Assembly: GCA_015056865.1 (NCBI GenBank) | Contig: SVFM01000004.1 | Span: 106,091-170,090 of the forward strand | Source of the DNA: Lachnospiraceae bacterium | GTDB lineage: Bacteria; Bacillota; Clostridia; Lachnospirales; Lachnospiraceae | Direction: 5' to 3' | Length of the DNA: 64,000 nt | Shown here: positions 18,134 to 31,068 of the stretch, piece by piece | Layout of the letters: each line of letters starts with the position of its first letter | Position numbering within the stretch: the first letter of the stretch is position 1 | Position numbers and translations under genes: made by a program | The notes under the pieces: generated by a model | The model's input: the letters and a program-made list of their open reading frames with translations, nothing else | The model's database searches: none | Told to the model about the DNA's origin: nothing

Positions 18134-18136
18134 CAA

Positions 18137-18477: not shown

Positions 18478-18693
18478 AAATTTGCACCTTCCTTTCTGTA
18501 GATGCACACACACTCGAATCTGCAAGAACATATGTTCAAGGAGATTATATGCAAAGAGTATTTAAAAGTCAATATTAAAATCACAATATATAGATGTTTT
18601 ATATAATTTTACTACCAAATATTGTAATGAGAATGTCACAGAATTATTGGAATAGGAGAAAAAGAATCAATTTAACATGTATCCATGTCCTGC

Positions 18694-18760
18694 ATGTGGC
18701 GTACAGCCACGTTGGTAACCTCCTCTTTAATGTATTGAGGGCGCACAGGCACCCGAATTT
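18694..18760. other. structured intergenic stretch upstream of early operon
   Basis: In the 330-bp gap 18478-18805, two hairpins are visible: GTGGC-gtaca-GCCAC near 18698 and CGCACAGG...CCTGTGCG near 18733-18759. A 13-codon frame (18677-18718) encodes CPAC but is too short to support as a gene. Apart from AT-rich sequence I see nothing else. Confidence 0.4.
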
Positions 18761-18805
18761 CCTGTGCGTCACATGGAGGGCATGGAGGAGAAGAAAGGAG
18801 GAAAA

Positions 18806-19021
18806 ATGGAAGTAGTAAAACCAGAAGTTGCAGCTAGAGAACTGGGAAGAACCACTGAAACCATCAGGGTTATGATGGCGAACGGAGAATTCCAGCCGCC
18901 TATCGGGGAAGTTAAAACCAAAGACAAGGCCGGAAAACCTTTAAAACGGAAAACGTATTGGATATACCGCGAGTGGTTGAATCGCTATAAGAAAGGAGGG
19001 AATGGAAGTGATGTTACATAA
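18806..19021 (+). CDS. small HTH DNA-binding protein (excisionase/MerR-like fold)
   Basis: A 71-residue protein; ATG 18806 follows AAAGGAGG. KPEVAARELGRTTETIRVMM has the form of the winged-helix start of excisionases and MerR-type proteins, with a basic wing (KPLKRKTYWIYREWLNRYKK). In phage early regions such proteins act as excisionase or regulator. The exact role is open. Confidence 0.7.
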   Translation: MEVVKPEVAARELGRTTETIRVMMANGEFQPPIGEVKTKDKAGKPLKRKTYWIYREWLNRYKKGGNGSDVT

Positions 19022-19235
19022 AATCTTATCCGGGACAAGCTTTGTATGTGCTCTTGTTGGTCTGGCCGGATTAACCGGGACCGTGGAACAGGCAGTGACA
19101 GATCCACAGGGCATAGTTCTTTCACTCGGGATCCTGGCGGTATCAGCAATCACGGGACTGTTGGCTGCAAACGAAAACAAATCATTGAGAAGGAGGAAAA
19201 GGAAATGTACTTATGGCTGGAAGAATGTGGACTGA
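19011..19235 (+). CDS. small membrane protein
   Basis: About 74 residues with two hydrophobic stretches (SGTSFVCALVGLAGLTG and IVLSLGILAVSAITGLLA) and a basic C-terminus. It overlaps the preceding HTH gene and follows AAAGGAGGG; GTG 19008 is an alternative start. No family recognised. Confidence 0.6.
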   Translation: MLHKILSGTSFVCALVGLAGLTGTVEQAVTDPQGIVLSLGILAVSAITGLLAANENKSLRRRKRKCTYGWKNVD

Positions 19236-19312
19236 TCAACGGAGCCGAAGAATCAAAAGAAGAACAGAAAAAAGAACCTGCCACCGACCAAAGTGAAACC
19301 AGGTTCTTATAA
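19205..19312 (+). CDS. 35-residue acidic prophage protein
   Basis: ATG at 19205 follows AAGGAGG and overlaps the membrane protein gene in another frame. The product begins MYLWLEECGLINGAEESK. Small size limits confidence. Confidence 0.45.
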   Translation: MYLWLEECGLINGAEESKEEQKKEPATDQSETRFL

Positions 19313-19400
19313 CAGCACATTGCCACGTGCTTCATGTTCATTGTACAGGATAAGAAAAGGAAATGTCAATGAGAAAATTGTAATAACAGGAGAGTGAAAA

Positions 19401-19574
19401 ATGATGATGGTTCATTGCAGGGACACGACCTGCAGACACAACAACGGCGAAGTGTGCATGCTACCGGCTATCAAAATAGATGTAGAACCGACAAATGAAT
19501 TCCGAGAAGGAAAGCGTGTTGTTTACTCGGTTTGCCAGAATTACAAGGAGAAAGAAGATGCCGGAGAGGATTGA
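19401..19574 (+). CDS. 57-residue Cys-containing prophage protein
   Basis: Starts MMMVHCRDTTCRHNNGEVC after CAGGAGAG. The CxxxxC-x7-C spacing with a later Cys resembles the DUF1540-type metal-binding pattern and suggests zinc binding. It overlaps the next Cys-rich gene. Confidence 0.55.
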   Translation: MMMVHCRDTTCRHNNGEVCMLPAIKIDVEPTNEFREGKRVVYSVCQNYKEKEDAGED

Positions 19575-19752
19575 GAATCGCATGGTAGTGGACGCTGAAT
19601 GGATCCCACGATATAAGCCGGTGTGCAGGTGTGAAGAGTGCGAAAGAGACATTTATCCCGGTGAAGAGTATTTTGATTTTGATGGCGATATCATGTGTGA
19701 GGATTGTGAAAGGGATTATGTAAGAAAAAATTATAGGAGGTGTGCTGAATGA
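19558..19752 (+). CDS. zinc-ribbon-like small prophage protein
   Basis: A 64-residue protein; ATG 19558 follows AAGGAG. CRCEECERDIYPGEEYF and DGDIMCEDCERDYV supply two CxxC knuckles, as in LIM/treble-clef zinc folds. It overlaps the annealing-protein gene by 4 bp (ATGA). Function unknown. Confidence 0.65.
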   Translation: MPERIENRMVVDAEWIPRYKPVCRCEECERDIYPGEEYFDFDGDIMCEDCERDYVRKNYRRCAE

Positions 19753-20321
19753 ATTATAAAGAGTTGGAACAGGTTAATACGGAAATTTCATTTATTGACA
19801 TAAAAGGGAAAAAATATGCTGATGTAGCAAACAGGGTTAGGGCATTTAGAAAACTATTTCCGAATGGAAAAATTGTTTCAAGTATTATTTCGCTTGAAAA
19901 TGGAATCTGCGTTATGAGAGCAGAGTGTATTGATCAAGATGGAAATGTTTTATCCACAGGACATGCATACGAGAAAGAAGATAGTTCTTTCATAAATAAA
20001 ACTTCATACATAGAGAACTGTGAAACGTCAGCGGTCGGAAGGGCGTTGGGATTTGTAGGAATAGGTGTTGAAAACGATATTGCATCTGCGCAGGAGGTAT
20101 TAAATGCAGAACAGCAGCAAGTAGCAGAAAAACCTATTACAAATGTAATGGTAAAAGCTCTCGAAGAAAAGTGCAAAAAAGACAATGTAGACCCCGGTGT
20201 AATTCTTGATCTTTGCAAGGTAGGAACGTTTGAAGAGATTAAATGCAAAGTTTATTCCAATCTGGTAAACAATTGGGAGAAAGTGCTGGAAAAAAATGCA
20301 CAAGTTAGTTCGCTTAAGTAA
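19749..20321 (+). CDS. ERF-like single-strand annealing protein
   Basis: A 190-residue protein. The signature ENCETSAVGRALGFVGIGVE near residue 95 is typical of the Rad52-like/ERF superfamily of phage recombinases, which coat and anneal single-stranded DNA. Its neighbours (HNH nuclease, resolvase-like nuclease, replication initiator) form a standard recombination-replication block. A short C-terminal helical tail follows. The start overlaps the upstream gene, and the 3' end overlaps the HNH gene. Confidence 0.75.
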   Translation: MNYKELEQVNTEISFIDIKGKKYADVANRVRAFRKLFPNGKIVSSIISLENGICVMRAECIDQDGNVLSTGHAYEKEDSSFINKTSYIENCETSAVGRALGFVGIGVENDIASAQEVLNAEQQQVAEKPITNVMVKALEEKCKKDNVDPGVILDLCKVGTFEEIKCKVYSNLVNNWEKVLEKNAQVSSLK

Positions 20322-20946
20322 ATACAAAGAAACTGAAGAAGGCACAGAACTGCTGGTTATGATTCCCGGATGCAGAATCGGTGAAATTCTTGTTAGTAAG
20401 AATATCTGCCAAGCAGAAATGAGGTTTGACGATGGCCGCCACATATCAGCAGAGCAGCGTAAAAAGGCATATGCCACGATCCGGGATATAGCGGATTATA
20501 CAGGATATCTTCCGGAGGAACAGAAAGAATGGCTTAAATACCTTCATATCAGCCGCACCGGCGCTGAATACATAAGCCTTTCCAATTGCACTATGGATCA
20601 GGCGCGGGAGTTCATCAATACCATTCTGGAATATGCCCTAGAGAATGGGATCCCTTTATCTGACTTTGCCATAGACAGGACGGATGATATAGACCGGTAT
20701 TTGTACTATTGCCTGATGAATAAGAGATGTGCTGTGTGTGGCCGGGATGGCGAGATACACCATGAAGATGCGATAGGGATGGGAAATGATCGCCGGAAGG
20801 TTGATGATCGATACCACAAGAAAATCTGCCTTTGCCGCTTGCATCATACTATAGCGCATGAGAAGGGTGTGGAAGATTTCCGTGATGCGTACAAAGTATA
20901 CGGAATTGTAGTAAAGGAGCTGGAGGATGAAAAACAGCAGAGCTAA
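20296..20946 (+). CDS. putative HNH nuclease (phage HNHc_6-type)
   Basis: A 216-residue protein. The C-terminal zinc/HNH core is CAVCGRDGEIHHEDAIGMG (near residue 150) with CLCRLHHTIAHEKG (near 180), supplying metal ligands and catalytic His residues. The N-terminal part contains helical substrate- or protein-binding sequence. Such proteins accompany phage recombination genes and are often annotated putative HNHc nuclease. The following gene overlaps it by 20 bp. Confidence 0.8.
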   Translation: MHKLVRLSKYKETEEGTELLVMIPGCRIGEILVSKNICQAEMRFDDGRHISAEQRKKAYATIRDIADYTGYLPEEQKEWLKYLHISRTGAEYISLSNCTMDQAREFINTILEYALENGIPLSDFAIDRTDDIDRYLYYCLMNKRCAVCGRDGEIHHEDAIGMGNDRRKVDDRYHKKICLCRLHHTIAHEKGVEDFRDAYKVYGIVVKELEDEKQQS

Positions 20947-21241
20947 GGGAGCAGCCGGCGAAAGAGAGCTTGCCAGAAAGTTAAAGGAATACGGTTATGA
21001 GTGTCGAAGGGGACAACAGTACAGTGGGGCAAATGGTGATGCGGATGTGGTTGGGCTGCCCGGTATTCATATTGAGTGCAAGCGGGTTGAAAGATTGAAT
21101 TTGTATGATGCCATGTCGCAGGCGCTTCGTGACGCCAAAGAAGGCGAGACGCCCGCAGTCTTTCATAGAAAGAACAATTGCGAATGGCTTGTTACTCTCC
21201 GCATGGATGACTTTATGAAAATCTACGGAGATAGACAATAG
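20927..21241 (+). CDS. PD-(D/E)xK endonuclease, Holliday-junction-resolvase-like
   Basis: A 104-residue protein: GAAGERELARKLKEYGYEC, then DADVVGLPGIHIECKRVE, the D...ExK catalytic pattern (Asp about 39, Glu-Cys-Lys about 49-51). Size and motifs match phage and archaeal-type resolvases. It probably cleaves branched recombination intermediates together with the annealing protein upstream. Confidence 0.8.
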   Translation: MKNSRAKGAAGERELARKLKEYGYECRRGQQYSGANGDADVVGLPGIHIECKRVERLNLYDAMSQALRDAKEGETPAVFHRKNNCEWLVTLRMDDFMKIYGDRQ

Positions 21242-21251
21242 GTTGAGCCCT

Positions 21252-21344
21252 ATGGCAACACCTGATCATATTCGTGACCTCACGAAAATGGTCAAAAGAA
21301 ACTGTAGATCATATTTGGACATGGGGGAATATATCACGGAATAA
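21252..21344 (+). CDS. 30-residue prophage ORF
   Basis: Starts MATPDHIRDLTKMVKRNC with AGG upstream and ends just before the next gene. Plausible by position only. Confidence 0.35.
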   Translation: MATPDHIRDLTKMVKRNCRSYLDMGEYITE

Positions 21345-21395
21345 GCCATGTCAGAAAAAAAGGCTCCGGGGAACCGGGGCCGGAAAGGAGGAAAC

Positions 21396-22055
21396 ATGAT
21401 AGACCTTGAAAACGGATATGTCATTGTACAAACAAGCGCAAACAACTTTAGCTTAAAGCAGAAGTACATGGGTATGCGTAAAGGTGTTGAGACGGAATGC
21501 CTAAGACTTATAAGCCATCATGGAAGTGTAGAAGATGCCATAAAAAGCGTTTCGGGGCTTTTGCAGGGGTGTTTTGGGAATGAACAAAGAGAAACACTGG
21601 ATGGGTATTTAAACCGCATAGAAAGCGCAAATACAAGGTTGGCGGAAAGCGTCAGCAACAGCCTAATGCAAAGGTTTTATGTATACGTTCCGAAAGGAAA
21701 CGGTCAGAGCGTAGATCCGCATCCGATCGTAAACCTGATACCGGTTGGAAGGAATAATGCAATATCCCGGAAGGAATTGTTAGATGCATGTGTAACAGCC
21801 GGGCTTGTTAACAGCAATAAGAGCGACCGGGCCATGCGGGATCTAATTAAAAAAGCCAGAATGGATTTCGTTATTTTGAACCTTTCAAACGGAAAAGGAT
21901 ACTACAGGCTTGACAGCGGCATAAAAGCGTCACTGGAAGAGATACAGGATCTGCAGAGGTACATACGGCAAGAAGAATCACGTGCTAAGGCTACATTTAA
22001 AAATATCTCTATGGCGAAAAAACTATATGAGGATTATATGGCAGAGAGGATATAA
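21396..22055 (+). CDS. prophage early protein, possible DNA-binding
   Basis: A 219-residue protein; ATG 21396 follows AAAGGAGG and is preferred over 21348. The middle part NAISRKELLDACVTAGLVNSN and the following helices look like a winged-helix region that also occurs in phage replication-associated proteins, followed by a charged C-terminal helix. No firm family. It precedes the DUF4373 initiator gene by 5 bp. Confidence 0.7.
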   Translation: MIDLENGYVIVQTSANNFSLKQKYMGMRKGVETECLRLISHHGSVEDAIKSVSGLLQGCFGNEQRETLDGYLNRIESANTRLAESVSNSLMQRFYVYVPKGNGQSVDPHPIVNLIPVGRNNAISRKELLDACVTAGLVNSNKSDRAMRDLIKKARMDFVILNLSNGKGYYRLDSGIKASLEEIQDLQRYIRQEESRAKATFKNISMAKKLYEDYMAERI

Positions 22056-22060
22056 AAACA

Positions 22061-22906
22061 ATGGCAAAGGAAGGTCTTGATTACTTTCCCTTGAATTGCC
22101 AGGTAGATGAAAAGATAGAACTGATAGAAGCTGATTTTGGACTAAAAGGGTTTGCAATAGTCGTCAAGCTTTTCCAGAGGATATACGGAGAGCATGGTTA
22201 TTATTGTGAATGGAACGATGATATAGCTTTACTGTTTGCGAGACAGAATGGTCTTTTGAATGGCGGAGTGAACAATTTAATACAAGAGGTTGTGAGTGCT
22301 TCTATCAGACGGGGAGTTTTTGATAATGATTTGTATGAGAGATACGGGATCCTGACATCGAAAGGGATTCAAAAAAGGTATCTTGATGCCGTGTCCAGGC
22401 GGTCTCAAATAAATCTCAACAAAAACTACCTTCTATTAAATGATGGCAATTTTAAAGGAAATGTAAACATTTTTGAAGAAAATGTATGCAGAAAAGAAAA
22501 AAATGTATGCAATTCCAAACAAAGTAAAGTAGAGGAAAGTAAAGGAAAGAAAATAAATAATATGTGCAAAGCTGACGCTTTGGCACTGTTCGAATCTCTC
22601 TGGAAACTATATCCCAACAAAAAGGGCAAAGGACAGATTTCGGAAAAGACAAAGCTGAGGATTGCTGAAATTGGTTTTGAAGAAATGTCCAGAGCAATTG
22701 AACGGTATAAAAAGGAACTGGACAAGGATAAGGATTGGAGAAAGCCACAAAACGGCAGTACGTTTTTTAACTCTGGATATGTTGATTATCTGGATGCAAA
22801 CTATGAAGAATCCAAAAGCAGCCCAACAAAAAAGAACCAGTTTAACAGTTTTGGACAACATGATTATGACTTTGACAGCCTTGAAAAAGAACTGTTGGGT
22901 AATTAA
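22061..22906 (+). CDS. DUF4373 (Lin1244/Lin1753-type) replication initiator
   Basis: A 281-residue protein. The first 110 residues match the DUF4373 N-terminal domain of phage replisome organisers (GLDYFPLNCQVDEKIELIEADFGLKGF). A variable linker with AT-rich DNA and a repeated AAAATGTATGCA (about 22480-22513) lies at residues about 135-165, where phage origins often sit inside initiator genes. The C-terminal part (LWKLYPNKKGKGQIS) is typical of the same family. It should open the phage origin and recruit helicase. Confidence 0.85.
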   Translation: MAKEGLDYFPLNCQVDEKIELIEADFGLKGFAIVVKLFQRIYGEHGYYCEWNDDIALLFARQNGLLNGGVNNLIQEVVSASIRRGVFDNDLYERYGILTSKGIQKRYLDAVSRRSQINLNKNYLLLNDGNFKGNVNIFEENVCRKEKNVCNSKQSKVEESKGKKINNMCKADALALFESLWKLYPNKKGKGQISEKTKLRIAEIGFEEMSRAIERYKKELDKDKDWRKPQNGSTFFNSGYVDYLDANYEESKSSPTKKNQFNSFGQHDYDFDSLEKELLGN

Positions 22907-22923
22907 GAGAGGAGTGATAGAAA

Positions 22924-23226
22924 TTGAAGGGTTTTCTTATGTACCGGCTTAAGAGAGGGGATGAAGAGTATGTTGGTACAGCACATATGTTGTCGGAGAT
23001 TGTGGGTTTGTCCGCATCAACGATAGGAGCAATAGCAAGAGGAGAGCGAACGGGGAAGGGTATAAGCGTAAAGATAATTCCTGATCCCACACAGTTCAAC
23101 TCGATGATGTTGTCAGCGAAAAAGCAGAAGGAATGGGACGATGAAGTTGCTAAATTTCGAAAAGTGAAATGGGTTCCAAAGGGCGGCACAGGAAAGAAAC
23201 TGTATCTGCCGATAAAATCTAAATAA
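22924..23226 (+). CDS. small prophage protein with HTH-like segment
   Basis: About 100 residues, TTG start 9 bp after AGGAG (ATG 22939 is the alternative). GTAHMLSEIVGLSASTIGAIA resembles a helix-turn-helix with a basic tail. It lies directly upstream of the DGR cassette. Function unknown. Confidence 0.6.
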   Translation: MKGFLMYRLKRGDEEYVGTAHMLSEIVGLSASTIGAIARGERTGKGISVKIIPDPTQFNSMMLSAKKQKEWDDEVAKFRKVKWVPKGGTGKKLYLPIKSK

Positions 23227-23243
23227 AAAATGGAGGAAAAGAT

Positions 23244-23843
23244 ATGAGCAAAGAATTGGAACTGGCAAGAGAACTTTTAAAAAGGTTACAGGAAAAGGAG
23301 GACGAAGAAAAGAAGATTCAGTTAAGTGAATTAAAAGCCGGAGATGTATTTAAAATCGGTGAACATGATTTTATAGTTTTGAAGCAGCTTTGCGGATTGA
23401 CAGGTGTTATCTCAAAGAATTTGATGTTAAAGAGCGTGAAGTTTGATGATAACACGCGGGACTATAACAGATCGAACCTCAAAAAAGTAATTGAAAAAGA
23501 GATTCAGCCGATCATTGAAAAAGCTGTTGGTGCAGATAACATAGTGGAACATGTAGCGGATCTCACATCTGTGGATATGCAGAATGAATTTGGGACCTGC
23601 AGGTGTAAGGTGCGGCCACTTACTTTTGACGAGGCAAGAGAGTGCAATGATTTGCTTGTCAATAAAGAAATCGGAGACTGGTGGTGGACATGCACACCTT
23701 GGAGCACCGAGGAAAGAGGACGGAAATATCCAATCGCCGTTGTTTCCCCGTCGGGCATCGTCGACATCAACTACGACAACGGCGACGGTGTGCGCCCGTT
23801 TTGTATCTTAAAATCTAATATCTTTGTATCGAAGGGAGAATGA
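23244..23843 (+). CDS. DGR target protein 1 (variable DUF6273-like)
   Basis: A 199-residue protein starting after TGGAGG. Residues 1-27 form a charged coiled coil. The remainder is a compact domain related to the next gene (AGDVFKIGEHDFIVL; DWWWTCTP; GVRPFCIL), resembling DUF6273/C-type-lectin-like variable proteins. Residues about 165-185 are encoded by variable repeat VR1, which copies the template repeat at 24775 except at template adenines. No signal peptide or membrane helix. The binding face of the domain should be rewritten by the retroelement. The ligand is unknown. Confidence 0.88.
   Translation: MSKELELARELLKRLQEKEDEEKKIQLSELKAGDVFKIGEHDFIVLKQLCGLTGVISKNLMLKSVKFDDNTRDYNRSNLKKVIEKEIQPIIEKAVGADNIVEHVADLTSVDMQNEFGTCRCKVRPLTFDEARECNDLLVNKEIGDWWWTCTPWSTEERGRKYPIAVVSPSGIVDINYDNGDGVRPFCILKSNIFVSKGE
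23737..23797 (+). repeat. DGR variable repeat VR1
   Basis: 61 bp aligned with the template repeat. Flanks CCGTTGTTTCCCCGTCGGGC and GGTGTGCGCCC are identical. Between them, 7 of 17 aligned template adenines are replaced and no other base is changed; one AAT codon is absent. Downstream GTTTTGTATC differs from the template's ATTCTGGATC, as initiation-of-mutagenic-homing sequences do between VR and TR. Confidence 0.93.
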
Positions 23844-23845
23844 TC

Positions 23846-24376
23846 ATGGAAAAGATTAAAGTAAATAAACAGTTATCAGCAGGAGATACTTTTACAATTC
23901 TGGGCTTGGAATGGAAAGTGCTCGAAGTAACAGAAAAAGGATACAAGTGTCTTGCAGAACGCTTGGAGAAAGGCATGACATTTGGAAAAAGTAATGACTG
24001 GAAAGAAAGCAGCATCCGCAAATATTTGAATGAAGATTTTTATGCGAAACTGGTAGCCGTTGTTGGAGAAGGGAACATTATCCCGTTTGAAAGAAACCTG
24101 TTGTCACTGGATGGACAGACAGAATATGGCTCCTGCGTGGACAAGGTGTCACTTCTGAATGTGGATGAATACCGAAAGTACAGAAAGCATATCCCCAATG
24201 CTGGTTACTGGTGGTGGACTCTTACGCCGGACAGCACAAAGTGTAATGGAGATGACTGGTGTGTACGCGTTGTTTCCCCGTCGGGCGATTTCGACAACTT
24301 CATCTGCGGCGACTACGGCGGTGTGCGCCCGTTTTGTATCTTTTCTTCTGCAATCTTTGAATCCGAGGAAGGGTAG
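23846..24376 (+). CDS. DGR target protein 2 (variable DUF6273-like)
   Basis: A 176-residue paralogue of the preceding gene without the coiled coil. ATG 23846 is 7 bp from AGGGAG; ATG 23840 overlaps the previous stop codon. Shared landmarks are AGDTFTILGLEWKVL, YWWWTLTPDSTK and GVRPFCIF. Residues about 141-162 are encoded by VR2. Its start overlaps target 1 and its end abuts the avd-like gene, so target 1, target 2 and avd are probably one transcript. No export signal. Having two targets of one template suggests two diversified binders made together. Confidence 0.88.
   Translation: MEKIKVNKQLSAGDTFTILGLEWKVLEVTEKGYKCLAERLEKGMTFGKSNDWKESSIRKYLNEDFYAKLVAVVGEGNIIPFERNLLSLDGQTEYGSCVDKVSLLNVDEYRKYRKHIPNAGYWWWTLTPDSTKCNGDDWCVRVVSPSGDFDNFICGDYGGVRPFCIFSSAIFESEEG
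24268..24330 (+). repeat. DGR variable repeat VR2
   Basis: 63 bp, the same length as the template from CGTTG to GCGCCC. Of 36 core bases, 12 differ from the template and all 12 are at template adenines (19 available). The 17 non-adenine positions are unchanged. The changes are A to G or A to T, turning eleven of twelve codons into new residues (DFDNFICGDYG against NINNNNYDNNN). Confidence 0.95.
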
Positions 24377-24748
24377 ATGGCAGAAACAGAATTAAATGTA
24401 ATCATCAAAGCGAAGGAATTAGCAGAGTATACCTTGCGGGTAACGTCCAATTGCAACAGGTATCCGAAGAAATATAGGTTTTCTTTGGTGGACAAGATGC
24501 AGAATAAGTCCCTAGAGATATATGAATATCTGCATGAGGCCAACAGGACGGACCTAAGGGCATTTGGCCGGGAACGGTCCGAACTGCAGACCAAAGCTAT
24601 AACTCATTGTGATGAACTGCTTTTTTACATAGAGCTCTCCATGAAACTGAACATTATAGATGTGAAAAGCATGGAATATTGGTCAAAGATGGTTACCGAT
24701 ATCAAGCATATGGCAATAGCTTGGAGAAGTAAGGACAAGGAAAGGTAA
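24377..24748 (+). CDS. avd: Avd-like DGR accessory protein (four-helix bundle)
   Basis: A 123-residue basic, all-helical protein starting at the end of target 2. Length, charge and the pattern of helices (IIKAKELAEYTLRVTSNCNR; KYRFSLVDKMQNKSLEIYEY; HCDELLFYIELSMKLNIID; YWSKMVTDIKHMAIAWRSK) match the Avd/bAvd four-helix-bundle family. Avd pentamers bind the template RNA and reverse transcriptase and are needed for mutagenic cDNA synthesis. The order target-avd-TR-RT is the classical DGR order. Confidence 0.88.
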   Translation: MAETELNVIIKAKELAEYTLRVTSNCNRYPKKYRFSLVDKMQNKSLEIYEYLHEANRTDLRAFGRERSELQTKAITHCDELLFYIELSMKLNIIDVKSMEYWSKMVTDIKHMAIAWRSKDKER

Positions 24749-24940
24749 AAAATATAGGTTACCTGCCGTGAAAACCGTTGTTTCCCCGTCGGGCAATATC
24801 AACAACAACAACTACGACAACAACAACGGTGTGCGCCCATTCTGGATCACAGACAGACGGAGTAGGCCGGGAGCCGAAACCAGTGTAGATACAAAAAGGC
24901 AGGTATCCTTCCGCTTAGCGGTAAATACAAAGGTTTTTCT
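24749..24940 (+). ncRNA. DGR template RNA region
   Basis: The 192 bp between avd and the reverse transcriptase hold the template repeat and its downstream spacer. In known DGRs this interval is transcribed as a structured RNA that primes cDNA synthesis. A small hairpin CCGC-tta-GCGG lies near 24912. The frame through the template (starting about 24768) has no ribosome binding site and is not called as a gene. Confidence 0.75.
24775..24838 (+). repeat. DGR template repeat TR
   Basis: 64 bp, flanks identical to VR1 and VR2, with a core of 12 codons that is rich in AAC (seven AAC, plus AAT, ATC, TAC, GAC). It holds 19 adenines in 36 bases. AAC is the codon that adenine mutagenesis can turn into the widest set of residues without making stops. 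It lies between avd and RT, on the same strand as the targets. Confidence 0.95.
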
Positions 24941-25969
24941 ATGGATAATAAAAGTATTATATGCAGTTTTGAAAACCTGTATAAAGCCTATAGAAAGGCT
25001 AAAGCAGGAAAAGGATTTAATGGAAGCTGTGCACGCTTTCAAGCCATGAGTTTAGAGGGCGTGCACAGATTAAAGGAACAGTTGGAGAATCAGACCTATC
25101 GGATGGCACAGTACAATGAGTTTACTATCTATGAGCCCAAGGAGCGCCGGATCCAATCATGTTCTTTTAAGGACAAGGTTGTCCAGCACTGTCTGTGTGA
25201 TGAGATACTGCATCCACGCCTAAAAGATGAGTTTATCAAAACAAACTATGCAGGTCAGATCGGGAAAGGGACGCTGTTTGGCATGGACTGTTTGAAAAAA
25301 CAAATGCTTGACTTTTACCGGGAGCATGGTGTGGATGGATGGATCCTCAAATGTGACATCACCAAGTTTTTCTACAGGATCGATCATGAGATTTTAAAGG
25401 ATGTTGTAGATTACCACTTTGGTGATCCGTACATATCCTGGCTGAATCATTTGTTTATTGACAGTACAGAAGGACCGGGACTGCCTCTTGGAAATCAGGT
25501 AGCACAGGTGTATGCGCTGTTAATGCTAAACGGCATGGATCATATGATAACGGGAGAACTAGGAATAAAGTGCTACGGAAGATATATGGATGATTTTTAC
25601 TTAATTCATCATGATAAGGATTATTTAAAGTGGTGTCTGGAGCACATCCGGGAAATGGCAGATGGTCTGCATTTAGAATTAAACGGAAAGACACAGATCA
25701 CACCTTTTAAATGCGGAATAAGCTTTCTGGGATTCCATCATTATATCACTGATGACGGAAAATACATCCGAAAGCTTAAAGGGGAAAACAAGCGCAGGAT
25801 GAAGAAAAAGATTGCAAGATGGGCGCGTGCAGTTCGATCAGGAAAAATGACCGAAAAGAAATTTTATGAGCGGTACAATGCATGGAAGAATCATGCGCTA
25901 CACGGTAATTGTATTAAGCTATGTCATTCTATGGATCTGTACGCGAAGAAACTTTTGAAAACGGAATAA
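24941..25969 (+). CDS. DGR reverse transcriptase
   Basis: A 342-residue reverse transcriptase without an added nuclease or maturase domain. Fingers/palm motifs: KERRIQSCSFKDKVVQ (about 67-82), ILKCDITKFFYRIDH with the first Asp (about 135-149), GLPLGNQVAQ (180-189) in place of the QGxxxSP of other bacterial RTs, which is the DGR-type motif 4, and YMDDFYLI (215-222) with the catalytic Asp pair. The C-terminal basic helices form a thumb. It should make adenine-mutated cDNA from the template RNA for transfer to VR1 and VR2. All key residues are intact, so activity is likely. Confidence 0.95.
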   Translation: MDNKSIICSFENLYKAYRKAKAGKGFNGSCARFQAMSLEGVHRLKEQLENQTYRMAQYNEFTIYEPKERRIQSCSFKDKVVQHCLCDEILHPRLKDEFIKTNYAGQIGKGTLFGMDCLKKQMLDFYREHGVDGWILKCDITKFFYRIDHEILKDVVDYHFGDPYISWLNHLFIDSTEGPGLPLGNQVAQVYALLMLNGMDHMITGELGIKCYGRYMDDFYLIHHDKDYLKWCLEHIREMADGLHLELNGKTQITPFKCGISFLGFHHYITDDGKYIRKLKGENKRRMKKKIARWARAVRSGKMTEKKFYERYNAWKNHALHGNCIKLCHSMDLYAKKLLKTE

Positions 25970-25977
25970 AACAGGAA

Positions 25978-26024
25978 AGGAGCATGGAGATTTGCTGGCC
26001 AGCACGAAAGACGTCTTTGCTCCT
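25978..26024. promoter_or_regulatory. nested palindromes before the methylase gene
   Basis: Two perfect 12-bp palindromes, TGCTGGCCAGCA (25993-26004) and AAAGACGTCTTT (26007-26018), lie between the arms AGGAGC (25978-25983) and GCTCCT (26019-26024). The outer arm includes a ribosome-binding-like AAAGGAG. The structure could be an operator or an RNA fold that controls translation of the methylase. A 29-codon frame from ATG 25984 overlaps it. Confidence 0.6.
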
Positions 26025-26026
26025 GG

Positions 26027-26893
26027 ATGGAAATGGAAAAAAGAAAGAAAAGAATAAAATGCGAAATATATAGAGACTCAATGCAAAACTACAAAAAGTA
26101 CGCAATACCACCAGCGCAGCTGATTATTGCGGATGTTCCATATAACGTAGGCAAGAACTTCTATGGTAGCAATCCTATGTGGTATAACGGCGGGGATAAC
26201 AGCAACGGAGAGAGCAAGCTTGCAGGAAAGGCGGCATTTAACTCAGATTTTAATTTTAATCTCTATGAGTATTTTCATTTTTGCTCCAAAATGCTGAAGA
26301 AGGAAGATAAGAAAACCGCTCCGAAAGGAAGAAGTTCTGACAGCCCTTGCATGATAGTCTTTTGTAGTTTTGAACAACTACCTACACTGATCGATGCAGG
26401 AAAGAAACATGGTTTTGTAAATTACATACAGCTTGTATTTGTCAAGAATTACAGCCCGCAGGTTCTTAAAGCCAATATGAGAGTGGTCGGTGCAACAGAA
26501 TATGCGCTTGTGATGTACCGGGAGAGATTACCTAAGTTTAGAAATGGTGTTCAAGTGGATGGTGATGGGAAGAATATACGAGGAACCGGGAAGATGATAT
26601 TTAACTGGTTTGAATGGAACAAGGACGGAAAAGAGATCCCTAAAATTCATCCCGCGCAAAAGCCGGTTAAAGTTATTAAAAAATTGATAGAGATATTTAC
26701 TGATCCGGGAGATGTGGTTATAGATCCTTGTTGTGGTAGCGGATCTTCCTTAAGGGCGGCTATGGAACTTGGCAGAAGTGCCTATGGGTTTGAAATAGAC
26801 AGGACGTTTTATAAAAGAGCAAAGGAAGAAATGCTGAACTTTGAAAAAGATGAGCAGATGTCTATTACTGATTACCCGGAGGTACTGCCATGA
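26027..26893 (+). CDS. phage DNA (adenine- or cytosine-N4) methyltransferase
   Basis: A 288-residue methylase of the beta arrangement: the catalytic tetrad appears first as DVPY (IIADVPYNVG, residues about 33-42), and the AdoMet-binding motif last as DPCCGSGSSLRAAMELG (near 235), followed by GFEID. A central target-recognition part of about 130 residues lies between. No restriction endonuclease is next to it, so it is probably an orphan phage methylase protecting phage DNA or altering host methylation. No ribosome binding site is visible before ATG 26027, so translation may be coupled or regulated. Confidence 0.85.
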   Translation: MEMEKRKKRIKCEIYRDSMQNYKKYAIPPAQLIIADVPYNVGKNFYGSNPMWYNGGDNSNGESKLAGKAAFNSDFNFNLYEYFHFCSKMLKKEDKKTAPKGRSSDSPCMIVFCSFEQLPTLIDAGKKHGFVNYIQLVFVKNYSPQVLKANMRVVGATEYALVMYRERLPKFRNGVQVDGDGKNIRGTGKMIFNWFEWNKDGKEIPKIHPAQKPVKVIKKLIEIFTDPGDVVIDPCCGSGSSLRAAMELGRSAYGFEIDRTFYKRAKEEMLNFEKDEQMSITDYPEVLP

Positions 26894-27174
26894 GTAAATT
26901 AGATAATTATGAATGCGAAGGGCAAATGGAATTAACCGATTACCTGAGTTCTCAAATAGTTAAAAGAGATGTAATGGATTTGACAAGTTGGATAAATTCA
27001 CAAGGGAAAGCACAATATGGCCAAATTGGAGATGTGGTTAATGATATTTGTGAACGTATGCAAGCTAATTTATCAAAAGAGCAGAAAGACCGCATCACAA
27101 ATGCAGTGTCTATATACGTTTTAGAAATGTCAATGGGTTATATGGATTATCTCAGAAGACAATCGAAAATTTAG
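26890..27174 (+). CDS. prophage hypothetical protein
   Basis: A 94-residue, largely helical protein that overlaps the methylase stop codon by 4 bp, suggesting coupled translation. No recognised domain. Confidence 0.65.
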   Translation: MSKLDNYECEGQMELTDYLSSQIVKRDVMDLTSWINSQGKAQYGQIGDVVNDICERMQANLSKEQKDRITNAVSIYVLEMSMGYMDYLRRQSKI

Positions 27175-27218
27175 AAGAGCAGAGCGGACAGCTTAAGTTT
27201 GCGTAAGAAGGTGATGCC

Positions 27219-27512
27219 ATGAAACGATCACGATATAGTCCAAATTGGAAAGGGGCTGAAGCAATGAGAGCAAAACGACCTCAAACAATAATAGCAGAGC
27301 AAACGAGAGAAATGTTATTTGACTACATTAAGTTTTTCATACAATACAACGGCTATGCACCAACGTTGAAAGAAGTAAGCGAGGCGTCCGGGCTACATAC
27401 AGCGACTGTGTACAATCATGTACAAAAGCTTATTGAAAGCGGTAGGCTTGAAACGGACTGGAGTAAATCTGCAAGACGAAATTTACATTTACCGGGGAGG
27501 AAAGAAGAATGA
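27219..27512 (+). CDS. LexA-type winged-helix DNA-binding protein
   Basis: A 97-residue protein: basic N-terminus, then a LexA N-domain-like winged helix (FIQYNGYAPTLKEVSEASGL; VYNHVQKLIESGRLE). It lacks the LexA/S24 peptidase domain, so it cannot self-cleave. It is a likely phage regulator of nearby genes. It overlaps the next gene by 4 bp. Confidence 0.75.
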   Translation: MKRSRYSPNWKGAEAMRAKRPQTIIAEQTREMLFDYIKFFIQYNGYAPTLKEVSEASGLHTATVYNHVQKLIESGRLETDWSKSARRNLHLPGRKEE

Positions 27513-27805
27513 GAGTTTATATCAGCGGTCCAATTACAGGGACAGAAGATTATCAAGAAAGATTTGCGAAGGCGCAGGAGCATCTGGAGAGTCAGGGATA
27601 CACAGTTATAAACCCAGCACTGGTGGACATGATTATGCCGGCGGATGCCACATACGATGAATATATGTGTGTTGACTATTGTTTGTTGGACATGTGCGAT
27701 ACAATATACATGCTCGAAGGTTGGGAGAAATCGCCGGGGGCAAACAGGGAACTGGGATTTGCTCTGGCAAAGCATCATACAATAATGCGCGAGAACGTGA
27801 AATAG
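27509..27805 (+). CDS. DUF4406 (nucleoside deoxyribosyltransferase-like) protein
   Basis: A 98-residue protein starting MRVYISGPITGTEDYQERF, the hallmark of DUF4406, a Rossmann-like fold related to nucleoside 2-deoxyribosyltransferases. GWEKSPGANRELGFALA near residue 75 contains the conserved Glu region. Its role may be in nucleotide modification or salvage during phage growth. Confidence 0.85.
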   Translation: MRVYISGPITGTEDYQERFAKAQEHLESQGYTVINPALVDMIMPADATYDEYMCVDYCLLDMCDTIYMLEGWEKSPGANRELGFALAKHHTIMRENVK

Positions 27806-27824
27806 CCCCAAACAGCCATAAATT

Positions 27825-27858
27825 CCGCATACCCTAATAAGTCTGCAAGGGTGTGCGG
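27825..27858 (+). other. hairpin in the gap before 27900
   Basis: Arms CCGCATACCC and GGGTGTGCGG pair almost fully. No T-run follows, so it is more likely a processing or regulatory hairpin than a terminator. Confidence 0.4.
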
Positions 27859-27899
27859 AGAGGGGCAGGAAAAGGCTAGGAAAGGAAAATGGAACTATT

Positions 27900-28178
27900 A
27901 TGCAGGGAGATTTAATAAGCAGAGATGCATTACTTAATGATTTAATTTTTTGCAAAGAATTGACGGGCAGAAAAGCTGTTGAGGCGGTAGCAAAAGTAAT
28001 CAAAGAACAGCCTGCCGCATACGACACGGAGAAAGTTTTGGAGAAGTTAAATGATCAGTACACATCTTGTCTCTGTAAAAACGGAGAGATTTGTAGTTAC
28101 CCGGAATCAATAGGATGCTGTTATGACAGAGCGATCAAAAAAGCGGTTGATATAGTACGCAACGGAGGAAAGGAGTAG
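27900..28178 (+). CDS. prophage hypothetical protein (ISRDALL-type)
   Basis: A 92-residue protein. The start MQGDLISRDALLNDL resembles the start of the protein at 29359 (MSDLISRNALINAL), a motif common in small Clostridia phage proteins. A Cys cluster (CLCKNGEIC, GCCYD) follows. Function unknown. Confidence 0.65.
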   Translation: MQGDLISRDALLNDLIFCKELTGRKAVEAVAKVIKEQPAAYDTEKVLEKLNDQYTSCLCKNGEICSYPESIGCCYDRAIKKAVDIVRNGGKE

Positions 28179-28181
28179 GAG

Positions 28182-28490
28182 ATGTTAATAAGAACCCAGA
28201 ACAAAGAGGGCCTTTATAATTTAAACGCATTGAATGGATTGCTATATAACGAAAGCCATGAGTACAACCGTGGAAAAGATGTTGGAATAAAACATGAAAT
28301 ATGCATTGATACCGGAGTGTTAGATGCTATTGCGGAATATTCAACCAAAGAAAAGGCCATAAAGGTGTTGGATATGATACAAGAAAAATATTGTGAACCA
28401 GTGACATGTGATGTATTTTCTGACAATGAAAAATATATTTACAGCCGTTCCGTATTCCAAATGCCACAGGATAGCGAGGTGGGAACATGA
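28182..28490 (+). CDS. prophage hypothetical protein
   Basis: A 102-residue protein starting after AAAGGAGTAGGAG. It has mixed alpha/beta sequence and ends by overlapping the next gene by 4 bp. No family recognised with confidence. Confidence 0.65.
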   Translation: MLIRTQNKEGLYNLNALNGLLYNESHEYNRGKDVGIKHEICIDTGVLDAIAEYSTKEKAIKVLDMIQEKYCEPVTCDVFSDNEKYIYSRSVFQMPQDSEVGT

Positions 28491-28936
28491 ACGAGATAGA
28501 AGCGGCTGCTATTGTTTGGGTAATAGCCATGTGGCGAGCGGAAGAAGGGGATGAAGAAAGTTGCGAGGCACTGGATATGGCAAAAGAAGCCCTTGAAGAA
28601 ATCCAGCAGTACCGGGCAATAGGCACAGTGGAAGAAATCCAGCAGAAGTTGAAAGAGCTTAAAAGGTGGCACACAAGTGAAGTAAATCCCAAAATCAAGA
28701 ATGTGTTTGCCAATACTTCCACATTGATTTGTCAGAACTGCGACCATAAGGATGAATACATAGAAGAACTTGAGGCCGAAGTGGCAGAGTGCCGGGCGGC
28801 AGTGGAGAAACAGACACCATATAAGCCGGAAAGTTACAGTTTCTTTGATGGAAAATGCAAGTGTGGTGCAATTTTTTTGGACAGGTTAATGAGATATTGT
28901 GCAAATTGCGGACAGAGATTGAATTGGGAGGAATGA
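28487..28936 (+). CDS. prophage protein with C-terminal zinc ribbon
   Basis: A 149-residue protein. The N-terminal two thirds are helical and acidic. The C-terminus is a zinc ribbon (CKCGAIF...YCANCGQRLN). Phage proteins of this composite type are common in Lachnospiraceae and have no known role. Confidence 0.65.
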   Translation: MNEIEAAAIVWVIAMWRAEEGDEESCEALDMAKEALEEIQQYRAIGTVEEIQQKLKELKRWHTSEVNPKIKNVFANTSTLICQNCDHKDEYIEELEAEVAECRAAVEKQTPYKPESYSFFDGKCKCGAIFLDRLMRYCANCGQRLNWEE

Positions 28937-28937
28937 C

Positions 28938-29366
28938 ATGGAGCGTTTAACAGAGAAAATAACAAACAAGGAAACAGGAGAGATACTGGCATACAGGCTG
29001 AAATCTGCATCGGCGGTAGACCATATCAAAGCATGCCGAAAACTTGGCGAATTAGAGGATGCAGAGGAGCAGGGGCGGCTGTTTGTGTTGCCGTGCAAGG
29101 TGGGGGATGATGTTTATTTCATTCCAAGCAAAGTAAATTACAAACTGAATATTTTAAACGAGCATGAGGAAAACAACAGAATTTACCATCAAAAAATAGT
29201 GCGTATTACATTTACACGAAATGAATGGTATGTGGAATGTGATAAGGATCTTGATTACGGCACAGGCAGAGTGCATATCCAACAGCATTTTGGAGAAACG
29301 TGGTTTCTGACTGAGGAAGAAGCCGAAGCGGCACTTGAGAGGATGAAGGGAGAGCGGAATGAGTGA
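28938..29366 (+). CDS. prophage hypothetical protein
   Basis: A 142-residue protein starting MERLTEKITNKETGEILAYR. The middle (LPCKVGDDVYFIPSK) matches a frequent phage pattern for a small beta domain, and the end (FLTEEEAEAAL) is helical. Function unknown. It overlaps the next gene by 8 bp. Confidence 0.65.
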   Translation: MERLTEKITNKETGEILAYRLKSASAVDHIKACRKLGELEDAEEQGRLFVLPCKVGDDVYFIPSKVNYKLNILNEHEENNRIYHQKIVRITFTRNEWYVECDKDLDYGTGRVHIQQHFGETWFLTEEEAEAALERMKGERNE

Positions 29367-29685
29367 TCTGATAAGTAGAAATGCGTTGATAAATGCACTG
29401 GAATTCCATTGTGAGGATACGTGTAAACCGAATACAATCGGTGGTATAGTCACAGGGACAGTCAGAGACTGCATAAAAATTGTAAGTGCACAGCCCACTA
29501 TAGAAGCTGTTCCTGTGGTACATGGGGAGTGGAAACAATGTTTTGAAGATTGGAGAATGCAGATAGTAGGCGATGAATGTTCTGCTTGTGGATTTCAGCA
29601 TTATGGGTCAAGCATAAATCATTATAACTTCTGCCCAAACTGCGGAGCAAAGATGAAAGGAGAAGAACATGAACGAAGCAAATGA
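29359..29685 (+). CDS. prophage protein with C-terminal zinc ribbon
   Basis: A 108-residue protein. It begins like the 27900 protein (DLISRNALINAL) and has a Cys pair CSACGF with CPNCGAK near the end, typical of a zinc ribbon. The segment PTIEAVPVVHGEW is a frequent signature in Clostridia phage proteins. Function unknown. Confidence 0.7.
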   Translation: MSDLISRNALINALEFHCEDTCKPNTIGGIVTGTVRDCIKIVSAQPTIEAVPVVHGEWKQCFEDWRMQIVGDECSACGFQHYGSSINHYNFCPNCGAKMKGEEHERSK

Positions 29686-29950
29686 TATCATGATTACAAT
29701 AAGTCTTTATTTTGAGGTACGCGATTCCGAAGCATATGGTGGCAAGGGGAGTATTGGATATGTCAGTACAAATGTTGATTTTAAAGCATCAGCATTAGCA
29801 AAGGTAGATTTTACAAAATTTACAGAAGCACAGAAACAGGGCGTTGCAAAAATGCTCAAAGTAGACGAGGAAAAAGTTCTTATAATTTCAAGAGGTTATT
29901 ATGAAAATGAAACTGAGGATGAAGATGAGGAAGAAATATGGAGTTTGTGA
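29669..29950 (+). CDS. prophage hypothetical protein with acidic tail
   Basis: A 93-residue protein that overlaps the preceding gene by 17 bp and follows AAAGGAG. It ends in a strongly acidic stretch (NETEDEDEEEIW). No family recognised. Confidence 0.6.
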   Translation: MNEANDIMITISLYFEVRDSEAYGGKGSIGYVSTNVDFKASALAKVDFTKFTEAQKQGVAKMLKVDEEKVLIISRGYYENETEDEDEEEIWSL

Positions 29951-29961
29951 AAGGAGCAGAT

Positions 29962-30132
29962 ATGAAAAGACACCAATTTAAGTATATAAAAGGGTGGTTT
30001 GTATTTCCTTTGGCAATAAGTATATCTAGGAGAATGGAATTGCTTTATGCTCCCATAGCCATATCAGTACATTTTATGTGGTGGCACTATCAGTATACTT
30101 TCCCCGAAAGGAGCAGATATGCAAGGAATTGA
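29962..30132 (+). CDS. small hydrophobic prophage protein
   Basis: 56 residues. ATG 29962 follows AAAGGAGCAGAT, the same ribosome binding sequence used by the next gene. One hydrophobic segment (GWFVFPLAISI) and aromatic-rich sequence suggest membrane association. Confidence 0.5.
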   Translation: MKRHQFKYIKGWFVFPLAISISRRMELLYAPIAISVHFMWWHYQYTFPERSRYARN

Positions 30133-30253
30133 TAAAGCCATAAAAATATTAAAAGAGGAGTATGAAAAGGCACAGAAACTTGAATTCGTTAACTTCCGGA
30201 ACCATACATACCGAAGGGAGAGTAATAAGGATCTTTTGTACATTGAAAATTGA
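30119..30253 (+). CDS. 44-residue helical prophage protein
   Basis: Starts MQGIDKAIKILKEEYEKAQK after AAAGGAGCAGAT and overlaps the previous gene. Short charged helix with basic tail. It is too short for certainty but has a strong ribosome binding site. Confidence 0.5.
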   Translation: MQGIDKAIKILKEEYEKAQKLEFVNFRNHTYRRESNKDLLYIEN

Positions 30254-30267
30254 ATATTGACGGTTGG
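30253..30267. repeat. left arm of 15-bp inverted repeat flanking a moron-like gene
   Basis: AATATTGACGGTTGG here is the exact inverse of CCAACCGTCAATATT at 30675-30689. Between the arms lies one gene with its own promoter. The right arm overlaps a terminator hairpin. Confidence 0.7.
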
Positions 30268-30310
30268 GCATGATTGTCGATTCTTCCCGACATTTGTCGA
30301 TGGATGTGGT

Positions 30311-30339
30311 TTGTTAGTATACAATATGAGTGGTATAAT
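30311..30339 (+). promoter_or_regulatory. promoter of the 30370 gene
   Basis: TTGTTA (30311-30316), 17 bp, TATAAT (30334-30339). A near-consensus host-type promoter inside the prophage, 30 bp before the start codon. Confidence 0.8.
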
Positions 30340-30369
30340 ATCTGTATTACTATAGAAAGGGGATTTGTA

Positions 30370-30660
30370 ATGAAAATAATTTTATCACAACCTGTAAAAA
30401 TTGCAGGAGAGCCGGATATTCACAGGGTGTCGAAAGAGTACACAAGTGACATTGTACCGGTGGTTGGAATTGAAGTTGAAGATCCACTGTGGAAAGATCC
30501 GGGAGGATACAAAATAACTGGTTACTCTATTAGCTATTACGAAGATGCTTACTATGTTGGAATAGAGCAATACGATGAAGAGATTCGTTTTTCACAAAAA
30601 GAAGAGTTTGCAAATATGGCAAAACTTCATGGGTGGAAAGCAAGCTGGGACTTTAGATAA
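30370..30660 (+). CDS. autonomously transcribed prophage gene (moron-like)
   Basis: A 96-residue protein; ATG 30370 follows AAAGGGG. Beta-rich, ending GWKASWDFR; no family recognised. It has its own promoter and terminator and is framed by a 15-bp inverted repeat, which is how phage moron genes expressed in the lysogen are set up. Roles of morons include host fitness and phage exclusion; none can be assigned here. Confidence 0.7.
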   Translation: MKIILSQPVKIAGEPDIHRVSKEYTSDIVPVVGIEVEDPLWKDPGGYKITGYSISYYEDAYYVGIEQYDEEIRFSQKEEFANMAKLHGWKASWDFR

Positions 30661-30673
30661 TGGATAAATACTT

Positions 30674-30702
30674 ACCAACCGTCAATATTCGGCGGTTGGT
30701 AT
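30674..30702 (+). terminator. terminator of the moron-like gene
   Basis: ACCAACC ... GGTTGGT hairpin followed by ATTTTGT. Its left arm is also the right copy of the flanking inverted repeat (30675-30689). Confidence 0.6.
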
Positions 30703-31035: not shown

Positions 31036-31068
31036 GTTGCCAATAGGATATACAATTCAGCGCCATTT

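Follow-up and report, generated by a model that had tools for sequence, protein, structure and literature searches.

We find that a prophage in a Lachnospiraceae genome carries a complete diversity-generating retroelement (DGR) whose two targets are small DUF6273 proteins encoded in tandem within the replication module. Our preferred reading, to which we give a probability of about 0.8, is that this intact prophage DGR would rewrite the C-terminal loop of both proteins, which likely act in the infected cell. The element occupies positions 23244-25969 of the window (the whole 64,000-nucleotide stretch analysed), and its open reading frames (ORFs) are all intact on the + strand, in the order target 1, target 2, avd-like gene, template repeat (TR) and reverse transcriptase (RT), as an earlier note made from the letters alone had read them. 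The cassette, with its variable repeats VR1 and VR2, is as follows.

23244..23843, +, target 1, 199 aa, DUF6273 / PHROG 9958, predicted C-type-lectin fold
23739..23797, +, VR1; core 23757-23786, 30 nt, shorter than the TR core by one codon
23840..24376, +, target 2, 178 aa, DUF6273 / PHROG 9958, predicted C-type-lectin fold
24269..24330, +, VR2; core 24287-24319, 33 nt
24377..24748, +, Avd-like accessory protein, 123 aa; phrog_3206 'Avd protein of DGR', 6.5e-22
24777..24838, +, TR; core 24795-24827, 33 nt, 19 adenines
24941..25969, +, DGR RT, 342 aa; phrog_1423, 3.6e-103; GLPLGNQVAQ and YMDD

Adenine-restricted repeats and the reverse transcriptase

The repeat family was recovered independently of the earlier note, and its base counts were reproduced. 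VR2 departs from the TR core at 12 of 19 adenines and at none of the 14 other bases (an ungapped check over 63 nt likewise gives 12 adenine and 0 non-adenine changes); VR1 departs at 7 of 17 adenines and nowhere else, provided that a 3-nt in-frame gap, left unstated before, is admitted. Template adenines account for all core substitutions between VR and TR (12/12 and 7/7), where a DGR calls for all or at least 75%. A 10-kb scan around the cassette passed only the TR-VR2 offset (13 adenine and 0 non-adenine changes in 60 nt), VR1 being missed because of its gap. Searched as DNA against its own genome, the TR returned itself, VR1 and VR2; the next best hits are two at E 2.48, so that neither a fourth repeat copy nor further VRs came to light. 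A search of this genome for DUF6273 genes gave three matches in two genes and no further one.

The flanks, described earlier as exact, are indeed identical in TR and both VRs over 18 nt 5' and 11 nt 3', but diverge beyond: directly after GGTGTGCGCCC the TR continues from CCC into ATTCTGGATC, and both VRs from CCC into GTTTTGTATC, as expected of an IMH/IMH* boundary (terms described in passages of PMC10743442 and PMC12875486). The segment 3' of the VR looks constrained as DNA and may act as the IMH. In target 1, 8 of 15 invariant-residue codons in this segment are identical in six phages versus 5 of 60 elsewhere, and the signal is weaker in target 2 (4/10 versus 10/50). Around the putative IMH the only stems are of 5 bp, over GGTGTGCGCCC, at 23784-23800 and 24317-24333; for BPP-1, a passage of PMC12875486 gives the stem-loop (inverted repeat) just 3' of the IMH as not strictly required.

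The motifs reported for the RT (LPLGNQVAQ as DGR-type motif 4, and YMDD) are both read in its sequence. Motif 4, GLPLGNQVAQ, has A before the last Q, where eight named comparators have S; among relatives G or N also occurs there, and a motif 4 regular expression missed 10 of 39 RT rows (nine with PLGNQ and G/N before the last Q, plus L085 with SLGNQ). YxDD is kept in all 39 rows, as YNDD in L071 and L085. The nearest PDB sequence to the RT is chain 8ub7 (E 7.1e-33; 328 aa, the same length as BPP-1 brt), whose group we take to be the BPP-1 RT-Avd complex. NCBIfam ranks group_II_RT_mat first for it (1.5e-27), and among PADLOC families it matches RT and DRT, which would suit an RT from a group II intron, retron or defence system lying beside coincidental repeats. 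We hold this to be next to impossible: the group II RT/maturase model TIGR04416 has a cut-off of 300 bits, of which 96.7 are reached, the PADLOC matches are generic, and 8ub7 outranks the two PDB sequences named 'Retron-type reverse transcriptase' (1.6e-6 and 2.2e-5), and the A-only pattern of TR/VR pairs in this and other lineages speaks against coincidence. The Avd-like protein also matches NF033474 (1.1e-11) and PF22296, both below their curated cut-offs, and has no convincing PDB match by sequence (best E 0.42). Each VR falls in the 3' part of its gene, whose product is modelled as a C-lectin fold. With A-restricted substitutions, an Avd family match, an RT nearest to 8ub7 and targets of predicted C-lectin fold, the DGR identification stands, and we regard a DGR mechanism in this prophage as close to certain.

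Divergence between relatives

Near-identical pairs of relatives differ in a VR core in 3 of 16 cases, and of the 41 substitutions that separate the members of these three pairs, 40 fall in VR cores. Across 13,014 bp L004 and L005 differ by 12 substitutions, every one of them in VR2 and at a TR adenine (12/12); L073 and L082 differ by 13 in 6,053 bp, all in VR2, with 0 non-adenine differences from the TR in either allele; and L042 and L053 have 15 of 16 substitutions in 1,838 bp, plus a 3-nt indel, inside VR1. Between-strain changes off template adenines, named earlier as what would contradict a DGR, did not appear in the VRs of L004/L005 or L073/L082. This VR-specific divergence supports DGR activity in relatives of the clade. 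The element had been called probably active, which has support at the level of the clade; for this prophage itself a single identical relative turned up, L006, whose sequence begins within the RT and contains no VR.

Thirteen of the 16 pairs show no VR core difference, including L081 and L088, which differ at 28 other places. Non-adenine mismatches occur in the VR1 cores of 4 of 10 phages (L004 and L005, with one VR1 in common, L043 and L085) and in the VR2 cores of 0 of 10. Such observations, with the 3-nt gap of VR1, could indicate a decaying or dormant DGR, in which VR1 lost a codon and drifted and diversification is only old. We consider this very improbable, given that all ORFs and the catalytic motif are intact, that VR1 of L042/L053 has been rewritten with a length change in otherwise near-identical DNA, and that the L043 mismatch vanishes with another gap placing; in-frame indels at AAC repeats are, moreover, described for DGRs (work cited in a passage of PMC12875486).

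Where an adenine is mutated in both VR1 and VR2, the two carry an equal base in 33 of 59 cases within phages, while comparison across phages gives 165 of 400 (P by permutation 0.035 and 0.012; nine phages, with L005 dropped for the VR1 it has in common with L004 and L081 for a core in another register, and with the extra codon of L042 put in one of five ways, the other placings raising the match). Such likeness might come from gene conversion, or from a single cDNA being written into both targets, but it is too weak to claim; passages of PMC10743442 report VR-VR coincidences as only occasional in that paper's own set.

A covarying RNA stem around the template

The TR appears to be bracketed by a 12-bp RNA stem, beside which lies a small covarying hairpin.

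24756..24767, +, putative RNA clamp, upstream strand AGGTTACCTGCC, 12 bp; between avd stop and TR
24898..24909, +, putative RNA clamp, downstream strand GGCAGGTATCCT, between TR and RT; partner of 24756-24767, this copy having one U-U mismatch
24911..24921, +, 4-bp hairpin CCGC-TTA-GCGG, covarying; just before the RT gene

The 12-bp stem covaries strongly, scoring 0.750 over the 13 rows on which the claim rests, against 0.273 +/- 0.032 for shuffles and at most 0.186 for slid versions. Folded as a single sequence, the TR region of the window gives z -1.62, with 11 of 200 shuffles as good. In a duplex test 17 of 30 phages reach 0.05, the 13 misses being L008, L009, L010, L064, L065, L069, L080, L081, L089, L096, L098, L105 and L106; the window's own value is 0.027, or 0.073 with slightly different ends. 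For pairable segments in nd4 (0.053), nd12 (0.073), Lelie (0.607) and BPP-1 (0.273) we claim no stem. The covarying stem offers a sequence-level handle on DGR RNA architecture beyond BPP-1. Neither the stem, nor the early-module location, nor the length difference of VR1 figured in the earlier note.

We propose that the avd-TR-RT transcript folds so that the 12-bp stem brackets the TR; RT and Avd would bind this folded transcript and make a cDNA of the TR in which adenines are met by random bases; synthesis would stop at the stem (steps modelled partly on BPP-1). By retrohoming, the cDNA would replace one VR or the other, its placement directed by the shared flanks and by the segment 3' of the VR that looks constrained as DNA. 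On a beta-hairpin of the predicted C-type-lectin fold, ten to eleven codons would thereby be randomised, and whole-codon length changes may sometimes accompany randomisation.

Early-module location and the role of the targets

The DGR sits inside a siphoprophage in which PHROGs matches identify integrase, repressor, terminase, portal, capsid, tape measure and endolysin. Its ends are a 15-nt direct repeat (shared 15-mers expected by chance in the stretch searched for end repeats: 0.012).

13930..53851, no strand, siphoprophage, ~40 kb, ending in the 15-nt direct repeat
13930-13944 and 53837-53851, 15-nt direct repeat TAAATTGGCTTAATA, likely att sites
16579-17043, -, repressor, opposite strand to the cassette
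22061..22906, +, replication initiator (Lin1244 N-terminal / phrog_20437), early module, two ORFs ahead of target 1
26027..26893, +, DNA N6/N4 methyltransferase (PF01555, 5.3e-26), directly downstream of the cassette
30673..30701, +, terminator-like stem, 11 bp and T tail, consensus match only; between cassette and terminase genes
31006..31035, +, promoter-like site, 11/12, TG before -10, consensus match only; just upstream of terS

Read from gene content, the cassette is in the early module and not with tail/baseplate genes before the lysis genes; terS (31386) starts 5.4 kb downstream of the RT, behind the terminator-like and promoter-like sites, with tape measure at 41604 and endolysin at 52360. 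The promoter-like site is possibly the start of the structural operon. Sites of both kinds barely outnumber those in shuffles (terminator-like, 12 found versus 9.7 expected; promoter-like, 44 versus 35.3).

The RT falls in a supported clade (31 rows, 98/98) of a tree that held DGR-bearing phages only, without retrons or group II introns. Phage DGRs are mostly explained as receptor-switching devices, most viral targets in clades 1, 4 and 6 carrying tail-protein annotations (passages of PMC8144416); a clade that keeps its cassette, targets included, in the replication module sits less easily with that view. In published comparators the cassette follows tail genes, ahead of the lysis genes, in 8 of 8. 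Word searches of the literature, excluding subscription papers, supplements and non-PMC preprints, found no statement of DGR targets in an early module, and the word 'early' occurs 0 times in PMC10743442 and in PMC11792537.

Predicted models show each target as a single lectin domain, to which target 1 adds one N-terminal helix; a sequence search with target 2 found no solved structure (best E 0.088). That the targets act in the infected cell and not on the virion is a tentative conclusion, to which we give somewhat less than even odds. The same standing goes to a reading in which the DGR works as described but its targets belong to the virion, as receptor-binding or decoration proteins, and have their genes in the replication module by chance. 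DUF6273 DGR targets adjoin tail genes in nd4, nd12 and Lelie (PMC10743442, PMC11792537), a passage of PMC13432834 lists an RT and a DUF6273 protein after the tail genes of a lytic Faecalibacterium phage, there are weak PHROG matches to Hoc-like head decoration (2e-4 and 1.6e-3), and DGR display usually relies on the C-type-lectin fold (a passage of PMC8144416). Against a virion role, replication, recombination or repressor genes flank the cassette in 16 of 20 lineages examined, no tail-attachment domain was seen in the predicted models of either target, and nd4, nd12 and Lelie each have, apart from the tail-module target, a small DUF6273 target of the early region. Pointing the other way among individual relatives, L073 has head/packaging genes as its annotated neighbours, on the downstream side, and in L053 a tail-fibre gene precedes the third target by ~5 kb.

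It is also conceivable, if unlikely, that the targets serve the lysogen as hypervariable prophage-borne binders for superinfection exclusion of other phages. The phage is temperate, no transmembrane segment is predicted in the targets (no 19-residue hydropathy window above 1.6 in 84 target ORFs), and the third VR-bearing target of L053 adjoins an anti-repressor gene, which hints at phage-phage conflict. Against this, replication genes, structural genes and cassette all share the + strand while the repressor is on the other, an arrangement that gives no hint of the cassette being expressed in the lysogen; and PADLOC finds no defence family in target 1 or 2.

Returning to action in the infected cell, a bolder and more doubtful generalisation is of a temperate-phage clade, some members in Lachnospiraceae, whose DGR lies outside the tail operon and would hypermutate paired, small, early-expressed cytoplasmic lectin-fold binders of variable intracellular partners (such as host defence or rival-phage proteins), in effect phage-made antibodies and not receptor binders. 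The DGR itself is of known type; the interest lies in a possible intracellular role for its targets.

Closest among known systems are the DGRs of the gut phages nd4 and nd12 (tentaclins, PMC10743442), which likewise have one TR, two DUF6273/C-lectin targets and an Avd-like ORF, with RTs 40-48% identical to ours. Their second VR lies in a small single-domain DUF6273 protein of the early region, resembling the small targets here and supposed by the authors of PMC10743442 to bind receptors; avd, TR, RT and a large Ig-domain target, in contrast, are in the tail module, 12-14 kb from the small target, whereas the window has the whole cassette in the early module, both targets small and in tandem, and no further VR in the genome. 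The DGR of Faecalibacterium phage Lelie / FP_Toutatis (PMC11792537) also has DUF6273 targets and an RT 41% identical, with two VRs in Lelie, where the small target sits among early genes (methyltransferase, replication initiator); its RT cassette differs in following tail/baseplate genes, before the lysis genes. Such small early-region targets would recast the puzzle of why there are two, with one binder outside and a second inside. Bordetella phage BPP-1 (mtd-avd-TR-brt) shares the target-avd-TR-RT order and an A-restricted VR, its RT being 30% identical, but the stretch searched contains just one target, and this is a tail protein encoded within the structural cassette. Farther afield, a DUF6273 N-terminal domain forms part of a secreted enzyme, the IgA peptidase of Thomasclavelia ramosa (PDB 9qa6; a passage of PMC12402451).

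The two-target cassette and its repeats

The host genome (2.53 Mb) carries a siphoprophage whose integrase and repressor genes are on the minus strand. Its plus-strand series begins with genes of no assigned function, followed by those for a RusA-like resolvase and a replication initiator. Next comes the diversity-generating retroelement (DGR) cassette, after which a DNA methyltransferase gene and small genes lead on to terS/terL and then to the portal, capsid, tape measure and endolysin genes. The earlier note had described a complete DGR with one template and two targets, and this description is borne out: target 1, target 2, avd, the template repeat (TR) and the reverse transcriptase (RT) follow in that order, and core substitutions in the variable repeats (VR1 in target 1, VR2 in target 2) are confined to template adenines. 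The cassette is thus a complete and probably functional DGR with two targets, and in that respect belongs to an already known kind.

Features, in window positions
~13930 to 53851: siphoprophage, bounded by a 15-nt direct repeat
22924–23226: 100-aa ORF immediately 5' of target 1, with no family match in Pfam, PHROGs, NCBIfam or PADLOC
23244–25969, plus strand: DGR cassette
36786–36858: tRNA-Met (CAT) gene, within the prophage head-gene module

The TR core, AATATCAACAACAACAACTACGACAACAACAAC, contains 19 adenines, and most of its codons are Asn, so that 10–11 codons are changeable. The 12 of 19 adenine changes claimed for VR2 stand, with no other core base altered; for VR1 the claimed count (7 of 17) holds, and VR1 additionally lacks three bases at codon 1. 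The 19 VRs of ten tabulated phages cover 362 TR adenines, of which 196 have been altered, giving G (103), T (80) or C (13); of the 89 changes outside the first codon position, only 1 is to C; passages of PMC10743442 likewise show the second adenine of AAC codons seldom becoming C. Non-adenine mismatches are present in the VR1 cores of four of the ten phages (L004/L005, viral contigs sharing one VR1, plus L043 and L085) and in none of the ten VR2 cores. VR1 looks, from these sequences, as if it were rewritten less frequently than VR2. Core indels relative to the TR occur in four lineages among those aligned, every one whole-codon, and represent a known type of event, since slippage by threes at AAC repeats is described in earlier work that PMC12875486 cites in passing.

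Core indels relative to the TR (nt)
Window: VR1 −3
L041/L042: VR1 +3
L043/L044: VR1 −6
L065: VR1 +3, VR2 −3

Relatives and recent divergence

Searching IMG/VR with RT queries, target queries and DNA patterns yielded 47 contigs with a partial or whole cassette (L numbers), and two contigs of Lachnospiraceae MAGs came from the genome collection; because most contigs were retrieved via a pattern on the conserved target 1 end, the sample is biased towards this target 1 type. Within the window's genus (138 genomes) the closest other RT by E-value has 33% identity (47% over one 146-residue piece); four genomes (G002, G003, G012 and G132) have 5–8 matches each to RTs about 33% identical. Target 1 relatives occur in 4 of 397 genomes sampled from the family, counting the window's own, the weakest having internal stops (E 4.6e-4). 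The order target 1–target 2–avd–RT recurs in most loci that span the whole stretch, with single-target loci in L091 and L008–L010. In closer relatives each target resembles its namesake more than its neighbour (for example L002, 69% vs 35%), evidence of an old pair. For the second target of L065, L080, L089, L094 and L095, the best match is target 1. L008–L010 are 140–160-kb viral contigs whose cassette encodes one target of 255–262 aa, an RT about 60% identical and similar RNA stem ends. Two RTs of the clade (L071:4007–5026 and L085:4831–5850) have YNDD in place of YMDD.

We compared 16 near-identical pairs whose overlap spans at least one VR, excluding repeated contigs, L082–L072 (same difference as L073–L082) and L071–L085 (only 96% alike). 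VR cores are identical in 13 pairs, including L081–L088, with 28 differences elsewhere, and L073–L072, with a single-base difference at the 3' edge of the VR2 flank. The remaining three differ in a VR core. Comparison of VRs between relatives, proposed earlier as a check, upheld the adenine rule: all 12 substitutions between L004 and L005 (13,014 bp) lie in VR2, each at a TR adenine, and all 13 between L073 and L082 (6,053 bp) lie in VR2, neither allele having a non-adenine mismatch to the TR. For L042–L053 (1,838 bp), VR1 holds 15 of 16 substitutions and the one 3-nt indel. L053 and L041/L049 are opposite ends of a single 55,719-bp contig, whose ends share about 190 nt of overlap with differing VR1, which points to a sample with two VR1 alleles, one of 33 nt and the other of 36 nt. 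L053 also carries a third VR-bearing DUF6273 target (3333–3830, minus strand, 36-nt core; contig IMGVR_UViG_3300029305_000529), which in phage orientation precedes target 1 by 3.4 kb and adjoins an anti-repressor Ant gene.

An RNA stem around the template

An alignment of the avd–RT gap from 13 phages gives a 12-bp stem joining the pre-TR stretch to the post-TR spacer, and an additional 4-bp hairpin. With this structure held fixed, 93.8% of cells pair and 12 of 16 pairs show two-sided changes; the covariation score is 0.750 (shuffles 0.273 ± 0.032; slides of 1–3 columns ≤0.186), somewhat favoured by testing on the structure's own source alignment. A count of further pair types was not above shuffles (179/500), and tests on single sequences support the stem less strongly, with 0.05 reached by 17 of 30 rows. 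The stem ends AGG(T/C)T...AACCTT are also seen in L008–L010, L064, L067, L091 and L096. In BPP-1, according to sections of PMC12875486, a folded spacer recruits RT–Avd and a motif at the avd end halts the RT; by analogy, the window-clade stem could do both jobs.

Cassette and targets in an early-gene neighbourhood

Neighbours were checked in 20 lineages by PHROG scans of hand-picked proteins from crude ORF lists and by tblastn with window proteins. The fetched flank contains a gene for replication or recombination, a nuclease gene or a repressor gene in 16 (the window, L040, L043, L049, L065, L069, L071, L076, L080, L087 and L094, with L004, L067, L091, L092 and L093 counted from tblastn alone). 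Of the remaining four, L073 has unknown genes upstream, with terS, terL, portal and capsid on the downstream side; L081 shows a DNA methyltransferase, and L008 a methyltransferase together with a tRNA-His guanylyltransferase; the flank of L010 gave no gene of known function by these searches. terL lies 3' of the RT on the same strand in the window (about 5.8 kb), L005 (6.2), L040 (9.9) and L073 (2.8), is distant or on the opposite strand in L008–L010, L070 and L080, and was not found in 19 of 30 records searched. Against an early location stands a tail-fibre gene on the L053 contig, about 5 kb before its third target and past an opposite-strand ORF.

In contrast to these 16 of 20 lineages, all eight published comparators (BPP-1, chosen by accession, and Lelie, Toutatis, nd4, nd12, Brigit, Lagaffe and Roseburia phage Shimadzu, hand-picked from 40 listed of 124 matching records) have the RT after tail or baseplate genes and before lysis genes. 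An RT tree places the window clade (31 of 39 rows, support 98/98) apart from all eight, among which there are long branches; because rows were collected by likeness to the window RT or target, it is uninformative on how frequent late cassettes are elsewhere. As far as literature word searches show, a DGR clade with cassette and targets in the early module is new; the word 'early' is absent from PMC10743442 and PMC11792537 by such a search. This location makes an intracellular role for the hypermutated lectins a live, testable possibility, to whose boldest form we give about one chance in three.

Second VRs were sought in stretches of five comparators. Brigit and BPP-1 have one apiece in the stretch searched, whereas nd4, nd12 and Lelie have a second within a small DUF6273 gene 12–16 kb from the TR, which adjoins a DNA polymerase exonuclease subunit in nd4 and lies close to a methyltransferase in nd12 and a replication initiator in Lelie. 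The small nd4/nd12 protein, as the authors of PMC10743442 surmise, acts like the BPP-1 target Mtd. A small early target thus seems to be a recurring theme, both targets of the window clade being of this type.
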